Virus record (IMG/VR): IMGVR_UViG_3300031788_000066
Coordinates: 1 to 33,994 of that record
DNA from: a virus
DNA length: 33,994 bases
Strand: one strand, 5' to 3'
The notes under the pieces: generated by a model
The model's database searches: none
The model's input: the letters and a program-made list of their open reading frames with translations, nothing else
Told to the model about the DNA's origin: nothing
In this document: piece by piece, positions 8,521-15,441 of the stretch
Position numbering within the stretch: the first letter of the stretch is position 1
Layout: the number at the start of each line of letters is the position of its first letter
Made by a program: the position numbers and the translations under genes

Positions 8521-11136
8521 ATGCCAGATATTACGGTTCTTCTTAATTACCCTCGAAGTGAAAAGTATCATGCACCGTGGAGTGTCCTAAAGACAGCGCA
8601 CGGGATGTCGTTCTCATATCCTCAGAACGGAGTGTTCTTCAATACCGACACACTTGCGCCTTTTCTTTGGCAAGAACCAAATAGCGGAATCATCATAATC
8701 AAGCCAACATTCTTGACAGCAAAGCGATTTGATCCAGCTTACGTTTCTAAGACATGGTTGATTCCGACTAGCCTAAACTATGGTGGAACTGCCGCAGGCG
8801 GGAGACTTTTCACTTATTTTGGATCGACAGGCACCGACACCGCCGCGCAATCCGAATATGTGATGTCCAGTCCTAAGCTTACGACCATTACAGACACACG
8901 CACTGGATTGGCTGTTGACGGCAACCTTCAGAACTTTATCAACCGCGCTAACTACTCCGCTCAAAGTATGGTATGGAGCCTTCAAACGCAGGTCCAACTT
9001 GCCGCTAACCAGGCATGGTCATTTTTAATCGCTCCTAGCTCCATCCCTCCTGATTTCGCCGACACGTTCTTTATGATCGCGTTTGGAGGGAAATTCATCC
9101 TTGAGATCACCATGGCCGGAATTGCTTACATGTGGGGCGACGTTGACGGCAACGGCACCTACGTTCACATTGACACCTACGTGATGAGAGACGGCGGCGT
9201 GAACATGAACCAAGCCTTTCAGGTGTCCGTCATCCCGCTTTCTAAGCGATTCCTTAGTGTTAGTTTCACGCAAGCGACGGCACCAGGAGTTCACGGCAGG
9301 GCCTCGACTTATGCCAGCAAACCCGACAGTTTCTTGACCGTACTTCGCGGACAAGGCCCTCAGAATCCTGCCGACAACAACCTTGAGCCTCAGTGGGATG
9401 CAGGTCTGGCGCAATGGGTGAAATATCCAGCAGCGCCAATAACAATAGGACTCGTCAGCAACGATTTTGACTATCATTTCGTCATCGCAACCGGATATTT
9501 CCCTGGGTCTGCGACGGCTTACATGGCCAAGGAATATCCGCCTGAAAAGGCGACGTGGAGCGGGATTAACTATACAATCTCGTCATGTTATTACAACCAA
9601 TATGAAGCCGTAGGTGGCACACCGACCGCGATAGGTGTCATTCTGGTTGACCAAAACGGGACGCCGTATGATCCTGCTTCGGGAAATGCGCTTGTATCCG
9701 AAATAAGTCTTTCCCCTTCTTATCCCCTCCAGATCTACACCCCTGAAATTCACGCGTATGGCGTTAGCTACCCGCCATACGTTCAAACTCCGGACTGGAC
9801 GCCTATTGATGTCTCGGAGGACTGGCAACTAATTCGATTCATCCTTTCGACCGATCTAAATGCGCAACGCGTCGAGATGAAGTTGCTGCGAGACAATGAC
9901 TGGCTAAATCTCATGAAAATGGCGGGGCCATGCCGCATTTCGGCACTCAATAATAGCGGAGTATCCCAAGTGCTTTGCGACTTCTACGCAGAACGCCAGC
10001 AGCCGACCGTAGAGGGTTCAAATCAGCTTATCGTAGACCAGTTTGAAGGTCTTGACATGTGGGATCGACTGAATAACTCGCCGCTTCTCATCGAGACCGT
10101 ACTTGAAGGCGACCAAGTGGCAGTTCAGATACAGCAGGCAATTATAGACGCTGGATTCCTTTCGTCTGAGGTGTTCATAGACTATGCCGCGAGCCCAGAA
10201 CTAACGTCGATGACGTTCGGACTTTTAACCAATCCGAACGACATTTTGAGGCCGAATTCAGATACCTCGTGCGGTGACTTCATTCGTAATTGTGCCGAGA
10301 AAATAGGAGTCCAATTCTCTCCGCCGATTCGCGTTCGATGGGTTTCAAACGGGACCGGGGGAATGTGGTGGCGGATCTACCTTGGCCCGATTTACACCGT
10401 GAATACCGGCTACGCTCACGGCAATTGCCAGTTGCGATTCTTTCTCGACGACTCGCTGGTTTCAACCGACACGTACGGTAGCGATCAGGCTAGGTGGCAA
10501 GCTGGCGACTTCATTGTAGTCGGAAATGATGAGTGGACAGTTACCAGACCGATATTCAACGCGATCCTGGCGAGCGCGGCCAAGGGAGTGGACGGCAAAG
10601 AAGGGTCCGAAGTCCGCTACATACCCGCACCTGCCCGCGTGTTAAACGATCCGTCGTATATAGGATTCGAAGGAGGGGAGCGGATAAAGCAACTTGCGAC
10701 CGAGGAGCTTCAGATTTCCCAGACAGCAAATTCAGTCGAGGTGATCGCGCGGCAATACTATGAGCAGAATTACAATCTGAAACGATTGCGGCACCGCGAA
10801 TTTCCCGGCGAGTGGCAACCTGAAGTTGACGTTGATATGTTCGTTGCGATTATCGGCGTTGCTCCTTTTGATAACTCGACAATGGGATACAGCGCGGGAG
10901 ATCCGATCAGTTACGGCGCTTATCGAATTGAGCATATAGACACCGAGATACGCCATGATTTCACCGTCGAGGGCTCCGCTTCGTCGCGTTGGGAGTGGGA
11001 GGGATCATACACTTTGACTTATGTCGGGCCGTACACTGATGCAGGTTTCACAATTAACGGAACAGTAACGCCGCTCAAGATGTGGACGTCTGCGGCAAAT
11101 CTGCCCGATGATTACGACTTGCCAGCGAACTGGTAG
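8521..11136 (+). CDS. Large tail-tip / central hub protein
   Basis: An 871-residue beta-rich protein directly after the tape measure gene, in the place of the siphophage distal tail and hub genes. The N-terminal half (about 1-430) is lectin-like or distal-tail-like beta sequence with many aromatic residues. Around residues 440-560 the pattern ILSTDLNAQRVEMKLLRDND, then EGLDMWDRLNNSPLL, then helices with VAVQIQQAIIDAGF suggests the gp27/gpJ-like hub fold. The C-terminal part continues with beta strands (VEVIARQYYEQNYNLKR). It may combine the roles of distal tail protein and hub, because no separate distal tail gene is seen. The assignment rests on position and general pattern. Confidence 0.6.
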   Translation: MPDITVLLNYPRSEKYHAPWSVLKTAHGMSFSYPQNGVFFNTDTLAPFLWQEPNSGIIIIKPTFLTAKRFDPAYVSKTWLIPTSLNYGGTAAGGRLFTYFGSTGTDTAAQSEYVMSSPKLTTITDTRTGLAVDGNLQNFINRANYSAQSMVWSLQTQVQLAANQAWSFLIAPSSIPPDFADTFFMIAFGGKFILEITMAGIAYMWGDVDGNGTYVHIDTYVMRDGGVNMNQAFQVSVIPLSKRFLSVSFTQATAPGVHGRASTYASKPDSFLTVLRGQGPQNPADNNLEPQWDAGLAQWVKYPAAPITIGLVSNDFDYHFVIATGYFPGSATAYMAKEYPPEKATWSGINYTISSCYYNQYEAVGGTPTAIGVILVDQNGTPYDPASGNALVSEISLSPSYPLQIYTPEIHAYGVSYPPYVQTPDWTPIDVSEDWQLIRFILSTDLNAQRVEMKLLRDNDWLNLMKMAGPCRISALNNSGVSQVLCDFYAERQQPTVEGSNQLIVDQFEGLDMWDRLNNSPLLIETVLEGDQVAVQIQQAIIDAGFLSSEVFIDYAASPELTSMTFGLLTNPNDILRPNSDTSCGDFIRNCAEKIGVQFSPPIRVRWVSNGTGGMWWRIYLGPIYTVNTGYAHGNCQLRFFLDDSLVSTDTYGSDQARWQAGDFIVVGNDEWTVTRPIFNAILASAAKGVDGKEGSEVRYIPAPARVLNDPSYIGFEGGERIKQLATEELQISQTANSVEVIARQYYEQNYNLKRLRHREFPGEWQPEVDVDMFVAIIGVAPFDNSTMGYSAGDPISYGAYRIEHIDTEIRHDFTVEGSASSRWEWEGSYTLTYVGPYTDAGFTINGTVTPLKMWTSAANLPDDYDLPANW

Positions 11137-11146
11137 TTCTAACGGG

Positions 11147-11177
11147 TTCAGTCTAAACCGTGACGGGTTGTGATAAT
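11147..11177 (+). promoter_or_regulatory. Possible promoter with extended -10
   Basis: TGTGATAAT (11169-11177) is an extended -10 element (TGn plus GATAAT). Upstream TTCAGT (11147-11152) could be a poor -35 at 19-base spacing. It lies in the 73-base gap after the hub gene and before two small genes, so it could transcribe them separately from the late operon. Confidence 0.35.
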
Positions 11178-11194
11178 ATCTGCCTACGTTCAAG

Positions 11195-11204
11195 CAAACG
11201 TTTG
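11195..11204. promoter_or_regulatory. 10-bp perfect palindrome CAAACGTTTG, possible operator
   Basis: Self-complementary site between the possible -10 element (11172-11177) and the ATG at 11210. It may be a repressor site or form part of the 5' leader. Confidence 0.3.
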
Positions 11205-11209
11205 GAGTT

Positions 11210-11389
11210 ATGAGGGTCGGACTGGTGAGCCTGTTTAGGCGAAACGCGCCGGTCACGAATTGCGCCACAGTTGAGGCGCGGAGGGAGGCAGTCATCAGCG
11301 CGGGAATCATTGATCAGTTGACGGACTCGCCAAAAGAGCGGTTACTAAGAATTAGCCTTGAGGTTAGCGATCCACGCAATGCATTCTAA
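11210..11389 (+). CDS. Small protein, SLFR-motif pair member 1
   Basis: A 59-codon frame with GGAG two bases upstream of ATG, which is close for a ribosome binding site. The product begins MRVGLVSLFRRNAPVT and continues as a charged helix (SPKERLLRISLEVSDPRNAF). Its first 16 residues resemble those of the next small gene, and the DNA there is also alike, so the pair probably arose by duplication. Function unknown. The possible private promoter upstream suggests accessory genes set into the tail operon. Confidence 0.5.
   Translation: MRVGLVSLFRRNAPVTNCATVEARREAVISAGIIDQLTDSPKERLLRISLEVSDPRNAF
11231..11248 (+). repeat. Imperfect 18-base direct repeat, copy 1
   Basis: CTGTTTAGGCGAAACGCG at 11231-11248 matches CTGTTTAGGGCAAACGCG at 11429-11446 at 16 of 18 positions. 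Both encode LFR-x-NA in the two neighbouring small genes. Confidence 0.6.
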
Positions 11390-11407
11390 TTTAGCAAGGA
11401 AACAACA

Positions 11408-11572
11408 ATGATCAAAAAACTACTGAGTCTGTTTAGGGCAAACGCGACCGCGACCGTTATTGTTCACGAATCGTCGGATGAGGTGAAAATAGAGCGCAAC
11501 GATGATGGCGCATTATCGGCGAAAGATATATCCACAATCCTCCTATCAAAGCGAGCCAAAGCATTTAAGTAA
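11408..11572 (+). CDS. Small protein, SLFR-motif pair member 2
   Basis: A 54-residue product with a good ribosome binding site (AAGGA at 11396-11400, seven bases before ATG). It starts MIKKLLSLFRANATAT, resembling the start of the previous small gene, then a hydrophilic part (SSDEVKIERNDDGALS) and a basic helix (ISTILLSKRAKAFK). The N-terminus could be a short amphipathic membrane-binding or targeting helix. Function unknown. Confidence 0.6.
   Translation: MIKKLLSLFRANATATVIVHESSDEVKIERNDDGALSAKDISTILLSKRAKAFK
11429..11446 (+). repeat. Imperfect 18-base direct repeat, copy 2
   Basis: Second copy of the repeat described at 11231-11248, inside the second SLFR-motif gene. Confidence 0.6.
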
Positions 11573-11812
11573 ATGAGGTCTACCGATTTTGAATACGCAA
11601 AGCAGTCAGAAGGCAAGCTTCGGCATCACCAAAACGTAGCGGGCGAGAGATCCCCGTACACCCGGGGGAAGGCGCTTGCACAACTGATAAACGTCGAACA
11701 ACTTCCGAAGTCGACGTATCTGAATATGGCGTATACGACAGGCACAGCACAGCCAGTTTTTTTCTTCGTTGCGGGATATTCCCGGGTTGATGGCCCTGAC
11801 GTGGTGCGCTAA
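11573..11812 (+). CDS. Doubtful 79-codon reading frame
   Basis: The ATG directly follows the TAA of the previous small gene. The product is hydrophilic at first, then reads MAYTTGTAQPVFFFVAGYS from residue 52. M-A-(Y/F)-T-T-G-T-A is a common beginning of phage tail proteins, so either an internal ATG at 11726 is the true start of a short remnant, or this is a decayed gene. No family is recognised and there is no ribosome binding site at either ATG. The opposite strand is open over the same stretch, which weakens the evidence. Confidence 0.3.
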   Translation: MRSTDFEYAKQSEGKLRHHQNVAGERSPYTRGKALAQLINVEQLPKSTYLNMAYTTGTAQPVFFFVAGYSRVDGPDVVR

Positions 11813-11840
11813 TCAAATCACGGGCGGTGCGGGTCCATTT

Positions 11841-12146
11841 TTAATTGTTTAACGTGAAACAATTGCCGGTTGCAGGCGAGCGACCGGCTTGGCCGGGTCA
11901 GTGTCTCCGTGACGTGGATCATGCGATTCTCGGCGCAACGCGCTCCGAAACGTTTGCCCTCACGAATCGACTCCGGTCGATTGTGAACTATAGCCCTTCA
12001 TAAACAATATTATCGGAGCCCTGGTTCGTGGGTTCAGATAATATTTATTATGACAGGGCGAACTTGTCATTGCCGAGGCCCACCAAACCGGTTGCCGCGA
12101 ACCGGCTCCTGGTAAGGTACAAACAACTTGGAACGAAGCGACAAGT
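11841..12146 (+). ncRNA. Strongly structured non-coding region, candidate structured RNA
   Basis: All three forward frames are stopped. Many stems can be drawn: 11843-11850 with 11857-11864 (8 bp perfect); 11865-11870 with 11883-11888, competing with 11884-11888 pairing 11892-11896; 11932-11936 with 11940-11944; 11961-11971 with 11976-11985, closed by the stable tetraloop C(TCCG)G; 12006-12014 with 12037-12045 (9 bp perfect) continuing after one mismatch as 12016-12021 with 12030-12035. Last, a long bulged hairpin: 12062-12068/12140-12146 (7 bp), 12073-12077/12127-12131, 12082-12085/12110-12113, and 12088-12093/12100-12105. The TGTCA at 12065-12069 can instead pair with TGACA at 12051-12055. 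The region ends next to the start of the large receptor-binding gene. Strand is assumed from transcription. Confidence 0.5.
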
Positions 12147-12342
12147 ATGGCGACATGAGGCATAAGGTGACGACATCCCAGTAAACGGACTCATAGCTAG
12201 TTGGACGCCTCTTCACGTCCAACTTGGAATCACAAATTGTTGTGACTCGATTCTCCAGAGTATTTGGACACCGGACTCGGTAGATATCAACTACTGGCAG
12301 ATCGAGTGCGCATCGGTTCCTACAGGAGGCGGTACGTGGTCG

Positions 12343-15300
12343 GTGCAGATTACCGAGGTCAACGCATACGGACCAACCGGAGGATATCTTAACCTACCCT
12401 TCGGCGGCCTCAGCTATTCCGGGTCTGGCACTTCTGTAACGTGCGATCTCTATTTCAACAATTGGAAGGTTTACGGCACTAATAATGCTAAATGGTATGT
12501 CGTCTGGGACTCGCTCAGCGTCTACGTCAACGGGTCGCTTATGGCAACATTATCGGGAAACAACGTCACATCTGACGCGCTAGGTCCTAGCTGGGTGCCT
12601 ATATTTTCCGGCATCGTGCAGTTTACGGGTAATGGGCAAGTTAATTATTCCTCTTCGGTTTTCGGAGGCTGGCGTTATCAGGTAGCAGGTACGTGGTACT
12701 CAGCGCCAGTCGCAGGGCTTCCACCGATAGCGGATGCACCATTGAGCGGCCCAGGAGTGTACTACTCGATACCACCGGTTTATGGAACCTTTACGGCTCC
12801 ATTTGGTCTGGCTGCTGCGGGTGTTGTCGTCACCAGTTCCACTTATGGAACTCAGATGCAGGTTAGCAATATCGCGGGCACACCGATCAAAACGCAGTCG
12901 GGAACCTTCGTGATGATTCCAAACCTGCCAAAGTCGATTAACCGCCTCAATTCGGATTATGGGGCCACATTCTGGCGATATGCGGTTCCGCAGGTGCAAG
13001 CGTCATCAACACGGACATTCAGCGAGATAAAAGTGCCTGTTTCTGCGGGATGGCACGCTAGTTCAAGTGCTACAACCAACGTAGTCAGTCGTGCGGGTAC
13101 GGGCAGCTACGAGGTCGGACCAACCGTTTCGCCTATCGAATCTCAGTTCTTGCTTCCCAGCTACTGTCTAGGCCAAGTCAGCAACTACGAGCAACTAATT
13201 ATTACGGTGATCGATGGGGTTGTCGTAGCCAGCAACCAGGAGATATTAAACACTGACTACGCGGTGTCTATGGATTCCGTGACCGGCTCAGAGTCGTGGT
13301 CTAGCGGTGCTTATCCTGTTGCACCTTACATGAGCCACGCTGACATTAGGTGCAACTATTTCAACTCGTGCGTTTGTAACCCTCATTGGTCGATTGGGTA
13401 TTACACCGGGCCTTGGAACCTTGAGGGCGCACCGACGACGTGGGAGACCTATTGGGGGTTCATCCGCGAACAGTTCATGTCAGCGCAGGGAAGGCGCAAT
13501 CATATCGTTTCGTGCCCACTAGAGACGAGCGGTTACACTCCATTTTTGGACACCTATTTCCAGAGTCCGACAGGCTACGGTATGCGGTGGATTGGCGTTT
13601 CAAGGTGGCAGACGGACACAGTTTCCCCTTTAAGCAGCTTAACCCCGGATTCGTCATCGTCGCCCAATTGGAGTGTGGTTAGCGGTTCGTGTTCGCTCGC
13701 TTTCGGTGGGACTGTCACAGTCACCCCGATATCATCGGTTTGCTCTTTCCGATTGGCGCTGGAATCGTTCGATTACAGCCCGTTCATGTACGCTCAGATT
13801 TGCCAGTCTATTTTGCTGAACTGGCCCGCAACGAACATCACTACAGCTCAGGTTTATGTCGTTTCGTCTGACGGCACCACACAAACCCTTTTGGAAGTGA
13901 GCCCGTCGGACGGATTCACAACCCCAGCACATACCTACAATTTCCCTCAAGTTCTCGACGCGAAATATGCAGGATCGTGGGGCATTGACAACGGGTACGG
14001 CGTTGTATCCGACACCGGAACGGATTACGCCGCAGGTGGCATGTCTGCGTCGATCATGGGCAGTCCCACTCAGGCAGTTGGATTTGAAATGGAGTTGGGT
14101 CGGCAAGGTGCTTATCTGCTATTCGTCTTCACGCCAACTTCGACGGGAACGACCTTCCAAATTGATTACCCTCAGTTCAACGCGGCCACATCGAAGTTGT
14201 TGCTCCAAGAGAATGGGCAGCTCGCAGATGTCCTATACGCGAACGGGCCAGCTATTCGGCTAGGTAACCACGTTTGGTACAACGGATCGTTTAATGATCC
14301 GCCGTCTAACAGTGGGCTCGGATACAAAGGAACCGTCATCGACTGGCTTGCCGACAAACGCGGATTGTTCTTGGGAGTCACCCCCACCGGTGGCACTCCC
14401 AGTCTGACAACCGAATGCACACAACTTTACGACGCATTTGAAGGGCAATCGATCGGGCAGGTAGACGACGATTCGAATTACTTTTTGCTCCCGGCAGATC
14501 CGTTGCACCCGAACGAATCGGTCTATAAATCCGCTTTGGTTAACTCATGGTCAGAGGTCCCGCCAATGTGCGGGTACCCAACCTTTAACCGCAGTGCGGC
14601 TACATGGCTACCTGCGGCTAGCCTTTGCCAAAGTTCGTGGAGTTGGGTTCAAGTGCCGAGGCGGTTGACCTCAGCAGCCACAAGGGCTGACCTATTTGCG
14701 CCGGACGGCGTGACGATGCTAACAAGCCTTTCATCACTCACGATTGACGGATGGTACGTTACCGAATCGAGCCCTATCATCACAAACACGGAGTCACCTA
14801 ACTTCTGGATTATTACGGTAGCGGCGGGAAACAAGAAGTGGGCCAAAGTCACGCCTTGGCATGGATGGTTCAGCCTATTGACTGTTGGCGCTCCTGCGGA
14901 AGTCGATCTTGCGTGCGATTCTAACGGTATTGTCTATCGGTGCCTTTCCGATGGTTCGCAAATCCTACTACTAAGATTCAACTTTGCCGACGTCAACGAT
15001 ATGTTCACCGCGTTCACGCCGACTAGCAGTGCTCCAACTACGTGCAATAATGCAAGCATAGCTTGCGGTCCCACCAACAAGCTTCTAATCGTTTTTGACG
15101 ATGGCACAACTACTTGGATTATCCGGTCGACCAACGCGGGGCAAACGTGGAGCGCACCGATGAGTGTGGCACCCGGGACGTGGCCAGAACCGGCCATTGA
15201 TGCAATTTCAGCAACTCAGTTTGTCGCTATTTCAGACGGCGCAAACTACAACTGTTGGCGCATGACTACTAGCGACGCTTCCTTTTCGAATGTCGGCACG

Positions 15301-15441
15301 ATATGCGCCGGGTCAGGAGCAAAGGTTGGCCTTACGGTTCGCCAGTCCGTGAAACGAGAACTAATATTCGAAATATCAATCGCTGGCACCGTCCAAAGGT
15401 ACATATCGTACAATATGGGCGTGAACTGGAACGCGAGCTAA
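12343..15441 (+). CDS. Receptor-binding / tail fibre protein with sialidase-like Asp-box repeats
   Basis: A protein of at least 1032 residues, rich in Ser, Thr, Gly and aromatic residues, as in tail fibres and spikes. Near the C-terminus, STNAGQTWSAP and SYNMGVNWNAS fit Asp-box (BNR) repeats of the S-x-(D/N)-x-G-x-x-W type, in strands such as IVYRCLSDGSQILLLRFNF, suggesting a sialidase-like beta-propeller at about residues 830-1032. GTG 12343 is the first ordinary start codon, but coding-like sequence continues upstream in frame to 12166 (for example LIASWTPLHVQLGITNCCDS), just after the structured region. The true start is therefore upstream and non-standard, or a base is missing near 12176-12179. 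Likely role: binding host surface glycans. Confidence 0.7.
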   Translation: MQITEVNAYGPTGGYLNLPFGGLSYSGSGTSVTCDLYFNNWKVYGTNNAKWYVVWDSLSVYVNGSLMATLSGNNVTSDALGPSWVPIFSGIVQFTGNGQVNYSSSVFGGWRYQVAGTWYSAPVAGLPPIADAPLSGPGVYYSIPPVYGTFTAPFGLAAAGVVVTSSTYGTQMQVSNIAGTPIKTQSGTFVMIPNLPKSINRLNSDYGATFWRYAVPQVQASSTRTFSEIKVPVSAGWHASSSATTNVVSRAGTGSYEVGPTVSPIESQFLLPSYCLGQVSNYEQLIITVIDGVVVASNQEILNTDYAVSMDSVTGSESWSSGAYPVAPYMSHADIRCNYFNSCVCNPHWSIGYYTGPWNLEGAPTTWETYWGFIREQFMSAQGRRNHIVSCPLETSGYTPFLDTYFQSPTGYGMRWIGVSRWQTDTVSPLSSLTPDSSSSPNWSVVSGSCSLAFGGTVTVTPISSVCSFRLALESFDYSPFMYAQICQSILLNWPATNITTAQVYVVSSDGTTQTLLEVSPSDGFTTPAHTYNFPQVLDAKYAGSWGIDNGYGVVSDTGTDYAAGGMSASIMGSPTQAVGFEMELGRQGAYLLFVFTPTSTGTTFQIDYPQFNAATSKLLLQENGQLADVLYANGPAIRLGNHVWYNGSFNDPPSNSGLGYKGTVIDWLADKRGLFLGVTPTGGTPSLTTECTQLYDAFEGQSIGQVDDDSNYFLLPADPLHPNESVYKSALVNSWSEVPPMCGYPTFNRSAATWLPAASLCQSSWSWVQVPRRLTSAATRADLFAPDGVTMLTSLSSLTIDGWYVTESSPIITNTESPNFWIITVAAGNKKWAKVTPWHGWFSLLTVGAPAEVDLACDSNGIVYRCLSDGSQILLLRFNFADVNDMFTAFTPTSSAPTTCNNASIACGPTNKLLIVFDDGTTTWIIRSTNAGQTWSAPMSVAPGTWPEPAIDAISATQFVAISDGANYNCWRMTTSDASFSNVGTICAGSGAKVGLTVRQSVKRELIFEISIAGTVQRYISYNMGVNWNAS

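Follow-up and report, generated by a model that had tools for sequence, protein, structure and literature searches.

The window analyzed here is a stretch of 33,994 nucleotides from a single viral record, and it contains a 362-nt non-coding interval, referred to as the leader, that separates a small gene encoding 79 amino acids from a long gene encoding a tail protein (Table 1). The tail gene adjoins genes with matches to tail-fibre PHROGs, and its product is homologous to unannotated proteins of ~1,100-1,170 aa in other phages, with most of its length related to proteins from MW202482, OR075997, and G006. No match to the tail protein was found in Pfam, PHROG or PDB; the receptor-binding role named in a preliminary description of the locus is thus putative. 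The nearest relative with a matching gene order is IMGVR_UViG_3300010371_000051 (44 kb; hereafter G007). Elsewhere in the window, the segment 23667-24812 has a Pfam Gp3-like match (recombination directionality factor-like, PF18897; E 1e-12).

Table 1. Features of the leader and its flanking genes (positions in the window; P, predicted pair probability)
Feature	Position	Strand	Remarks
79-aa gene upstream of the leader	11573..11812	+	Stop codon (11810-11812) is the left border of the element; 62.5% identical to the 79-aa gene of G007
Structured leader, entire non-coding interval, 362 nt	11813..12174	+	No canonical gene assigned; fold z = -3.6; absent from G007
Hairpin H1, 8 perfect bp (AATTGTTT/AAACAATT)	11843..11864	+	P 0.90-0.99 in every context tested
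Palindrome A, which can form hairpin H2 locally or pair at long range, as the 5' strand, with 12086-12106	11865..11888	+	Pairing depends on flanks and parameters
Hairpin H3, C(UCCG)G tetraloop (tetraloop hairpin proper, 11966-11981)	11960..11986	+	P 0.83-0.93
Long hairpin H4, 26 bp, small internal loops	11993..12059	+	P 0.92-0.99; inverted repeat I1; main source of the folding excess
85-base structure, ACTTGTC/GACAAGT closure (12062-12068/12140-12146)	12062..12146	+	Present as sequence
Segment TGTCATTGCC, weak candidate partner of the Shine-Dalgarno and start codon (12166-12175)	12065..12074	+	P 0.00-0.36 by context
Palindrome B (AACCGGTT...AACCGGC), alternative partner for palindrome A	12086..12106	+
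TAAGGTGA Shine-Dalgarno (AAGGTGA), about 5 nt 5' of the AUC codon	12163..12170	+	Anti-Shine-Dalgarno duplex, -11.5 kcal/mol
Tail gene (putative receptor-binding), 1,088 aa, probable start ATC (AUC)	12175..15441	+	N-terminal motif and length common to three homologs

Predicted folding of the leader

The preliminary description had called the segment 11841-12146 densely structured, and both its coordinates and the named stems were confirmed. The minimum fold of this segment is -120.9 kcal/mol; relative to dinucleotide-shuffled sequences its z is -5.3, and none of the 100 shuffles equaled it. Furthermore, the segment contains seven perfect Watson-Crick stems of at least 7 bp, compared with 2.3 +/- 1.6 in mononucleotide shuffles (maximum 6, n = 60). 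When 352 segments of 306 nt were folded on the plus strand of a near-identical 54-kb genome, those starting at 11935 and 11782 ranked second and third, and 11841-12146 overlaps two of the three most structured segments in that genome. These data indicate that the interval is a real, statistically unusual structured stretch of one phage lineage. The most structured segment of the genome lies at ~38400-38760 of L014 (rotated to the window start), where TTTGCGGAGTT/AACTCCGCAAA inverted repeats recur after a helicase/primase-like gene, and is likely a replication origin; the peak at 38404 was rejected as a second copy of the leader, being repeat-rich, origin-like DNA.

The folding excess is unevenly distributed and comes mainly from the single 67-nt hairpin at 11993-12059. 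The stretch 11991-12062 folds on its own at -33.9 kcal/mol (z = -6.2), and removal of 11993-12059 leaves the leader region with a z of about -1.9. This concentration is in keeping with an unselected spacer, that is, a functionless remnant of a recombination junction holding by chance a long inverted repeat plus a few palindromes; the GC content of the leader, which equals that of the genome (52.5% vs 51.8%), and the lack of the leader in G007 also suit this explanation. However, the number of long stems argues against it, as does the tendency of phage genomes to purge spacers, although the latter point is weak because the three contigs that retain the leader are near-identical. A spacer of this kind is regarded as unlikely, while still deserving serious consideration.

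The minus strand of 11841-12146 gave a fold z of -4.8, and as it is nearly as stable as the plus strand, energy alone does not assign the structure to a strand; the sequence is compatible with a structure acting as RNA or as DNA. The similar folding of the minus strand, the imperfect inverted repeats at 11865-11900 and 12070-12106, and the abrupt left border would all fit a DNA element, either a small mobile insertion or a recombination or protein-binding site with imperfect terminal inverted repeats, lying between two genes. This reading is improbable, because the element is single-copy, with no other copy, as a MITE would have, elsewhere in the genome, in phages or in plasmids, because no target-site duplication was seen by eye at the borders, and because the left border is a gene end, as expected for ordinary modular exchange.

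Hairpins 11843-11864, 11960-11986, and 11993-12059 were stable across all contexts tested, and those at 11865-11888 and 12087-12113 were context-dependent. Two segments had been described as able to pair with either of two partners, suggesting a switching structure. For ACCGGC (11883-11888) this was confirmed: the flanks decide whether it enters a hairpin formed locally or a helix formed at long range; this bistability of palindrome A arises from the CCGGTT/AACCGG core common to the palindromes at 11865-11888 and 12086-12106, which allows self- or cross-pairing. In the context of the full leader, P for the local hairpin 11865-11888 is 0.96-1.00, and the long-range helix 11865-71/12100-06 reaches P 0.87-0.96 when the region is excised; with Andronescu parameters, the values for the two pairings are 0.59/0.40. 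With 28 extra upstream bases, the probability of this closing helix becomes 0.00-0.03 with Turner or 0.40 with Andronescu parameters. The closing helix is thus predicted to dominate only without the upstream 28 bases, and under other parameters to be a near-equal alternative; the bistability is by itself no evidence of regulation.

For the second segment, TGTCA, pairing with TGACA at 12051-12055 or with the ribosome-binding site is possible, but the complementarity to the binding site is at chance level, being matched by 82% of shuffled leaders. Sequestration of the ribosome-binding site by 12065-12074 was rejected as evidence on this ground. A switch is thermodynamically possible through the shared palindrome core, but no conformer is tied to the start site, and the local structure around the tail-gene start codon is ambiguous in the predicted folds. 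The full 7-bp closure of the 85-base structure was absent from the lowest-energy folds viewed, in which the inner 5-bp hairpin 12126-30/12142-46 or other pairs formed instead.

Searches for related elements and comparison with G007

Searches of Rfam 15, including group I and II introns, GOLLD, ROOL and riboswitches, gave no gathering matches in the window, and at E <= 5 the sole match was HTT-AS1_3 (19.6 bits, gathering 70) at 11627-11689 on the minus strand. Together with the finding of no tRNA or tmRNA by ARAGORN, this bears out the preliminary description, in which no known riboswitch, intron core or tRNA had been recognized. As for retrons or DGRs, no RVT_1 matches were found in the 54-kb genome, whereas positive controls were matched. 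In DNA searches of phages and plasmids, no match extended over >10% of the leader, the lowest E being about 0.1, and no second copy was found in the genome, phages or plasmids. A 27-mer of a Staphylococcus phage was treated as chance: a recombinase gene with an intron is close by, but the ORF for the intron endonuclease is well separated from the 27-mer. Two candidate hidden proteins were also rejected: a 67-aa minus-strand ORF had no significant Pfam match, no phage relative and no clear codon-position bias, and a ~49-aa GTG ORF (11854-12002) had neither a significant Pfam match nor a clear codon-position bias.

Viral and genome contigs searched with the tail, neighboring, and terminase proteins revealed the locus only in near-identical contigs and in G007. 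As there is no homolog beyond the near-identical copies, there are no compensatory changes to count. The flanking genes are mostly 52-70% identical to those of G007 (62% in the 871-aa gene). In G007, however, the ATG of the tail gene overlaps the stop codon of the 79-aa gene (TAATG), with zero intervening sequence, and the DNA similarity between the window and G007 stops exactly at TAAT, 11810-11813. The two tail proteins are alignable only over the C-terminal 177 aa (57%), and this C-terminal match, set against flanking genes of 52-70% identity, indicates that the 5' part of the tail gene was exchanged. The leader may have come along when the N-terminal part of the tail gene was swapped, or may have been inserted separately at the same border. 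Compared with L110 3761-6808, the tail gene is mosaic, the remainder outside the common C-terminal part having been replaced; that part contains RSTNAGQTWS-type motifs resembling BNR repeats. A second insertion relative to G007, whose 871-aa and 79-aa genes overlap, occupies 11137-11572 and contains a pair of small ORFs at 11210-11389 and 11408-11572, which begin alike (SLFRRNA/SLFRANA).

The leader is carried by near-identical contigs of one phage only, in three of which it is unchanged, and no source phage with the same leader was found in the phage, plasmid, and viral-contig searches. G006 (26 kb) encodes the same protein families in a different order, with no similar leader. The locus is structured beyond chance, but the earlier proposal of a new regulatory or structural RNA is not borne out by these searches: the one close relative with shared synteny lacks the element, which weakens the proposal, and no homologs were found. 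Most likely, this is a private leader that came in together with the swapped tail gene; the data do not demonstrate a new family of RNAs.

A free-standing or processed structural RNA acting in trans, of the ornate phage RNA kind and from a family outside Rfam, was also considered. The possible closing helix from 11865 to 12106, which would enclose about five internal hairpins and is favored in the excised region, and the presence of a UNCG tetraloop are consistent with such an RNA. The loss of the closing helix with 28 more upstream bases (with Turner parameters), the absence of promoter-like or terminator-like sites on the plus strand of 11100-12500, and the lack of homologs and of a tRNA-island context argue against it, and a trans-acting RNA would be a rather surprising outcome. 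The leader resembles the GOLLD and ROOL RNAs in being phage-borne and in having an elaborate predicted secondary structure and no known partner. GOLLD and ROOL exceed it in size (GOLLD is often over 800 nt), occur widely, have covariation support, and are often located near tRNA islands (PMC12286853), whereas the structured stretch in the window is about 300 nt, belongs to a single lineage, and has neither a tRNA nor an Rfam match.

The start codon of the tail gene

The reading frame of the tail gene is open from position 12166 on, and the first in-frame ATG, GTG or TTG is at 12343. From the ATC at 12175 the frame reads I-P-V-N-G-L-I, and homologs start with MxNGLI or similar, giving a common N-terminus (I/M)xxNGLI. 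Furthermore, the LxxP motif is at residue 72 when counted from AUC 12175, compared with 74, 75, and 67 in three homologs and 16 when counted from GTG 12343. On the basis of this motif and distance, the start was placed at AUC 12175. The anti-Shine-Dalgarno duplex upstream of this codon is the strongest among 19 assigned starts (the rest range from -0.4 to -7.5 kcal/mol), and 1.7% of random positions match its energy. The first 59 N-terminal residues alone did not align significantly in two of three homolog comparisons (p 0.03-0.5), and GTG 12343 is preceded by AGGAGG 13 nt upstream (-13.2), so a shorter tail protein is possible. Altogether, the tail gene probably starts at AUC 12175 and not at GTG 12343, a placement that is well supported but not proven. 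This matters for annotation, because standard gene callers would begin the tail protein 56 residues late.

The Escherichia coli gene infC has a rare AUU/AUC-type start with a strong Shine-Dalgarno. The tail gene shares with infC-type genes a start codon that is weak at the third position and a strong Shine-Dalgarno, but it is a phage tail gene, its start is placed by homology only, and autoregulation of the IF3 type is not implied. In vitro, initiation factors sense how strong the codon-anticodon pair is, and mismatched pairs lead to very low product (PMC10158994); an AUC start should therefore be weak.

A structured RNA directly 5' of an ORF with no ATG, GTG or TTG at its homologous N-terminus could also be explained by an unrecognized self-splicing intron or by an IRES-like element giving AUG-less initiation. 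The intergenic IRES of dicistroviruses is likewise a structured intergenic RNA 5' of a structural-protein ORF without AUG (PMC8002689), and it has activity in E. coli (PMC9458429); unlike it, the leader has a bacterial Shine-Dalgarno and no evidence of a triple pseudoknot, and the virus type is unrelated. No group I or II intron was matched at E <= 5, no exon carrying a start was found upstream, and an ATG would not be restored by rejoining. An intron that would link the 79-aa gene and the tail gene as exons was rejected for this reason and because the 79-aa protein has its full length, as it does in G007. As a good Shine-Dalgarno stands at the expected distance from the AUC, neither an intron nor an IRES is needed, and this is the least probable of the explanations considered.

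A proposed leader acting in cis

The leader is structured beyond chance, is absent from the syntenic relative, and begins exactly at the upstream stop codon. It also lies on the same strand as the tail gene, with no terminator-like site in 11100-12500. We tentatively favor, at somewhat less than even confidence, the reading that the 362 nt are a lineage-specific structured mRNA leader that acts in cis, upstream of a tail gene whose N-terminal part has been swapped. The leader would form the structured 5' leader of the tail gene inside a late polycistronic mRNA, recombination having presumably replaced the N-terminal ~900 codons. In G007, to judge from the overlapping TAATG, ribosomes ending the 79-aa gene would pass into the tail gene; in the window phage, the leader would break this coupling, and ribosomes would enter the tail gene de novo, using a strong Shine-Dalgarno together with a weak AUC codon. 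Most likely acting in cis, the hairpins would protect or process the mRNA upstream of the tail gene, and could keep the initiation region apart from upstream sequence, resulting in low, independent output of tail protein. Action in cis, a role in mRNA processing or stability, and low output are what we infer from this arrangement.

Structured 5' leaders and intercistronic regions of bacterial and phage mRNAs likewise have a gene directly 3', stable local hairpins, and a Shine-Dalgarno at the 3' end. They differ from the leader in the window, which has no known ligand, no protein or thermosensor motif, no conserved family, and no terminator-like expression platform. There is a slim chance that the leader is instead an RNA cassette that travels with the tail-protein module and enables AUC initiation independently of the upstream gene; such a cassette would be a bacterial module in which RNA assists initiation on host-recognition genes that can be swapped. 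So far, the evidence points to an unusual leader specific to one lineage and not to a new RNA family. If functional, the leader would show how a tail gene acquired horizontally can carry its own translation control with it on replacing a gene that depended on an overlapping start.
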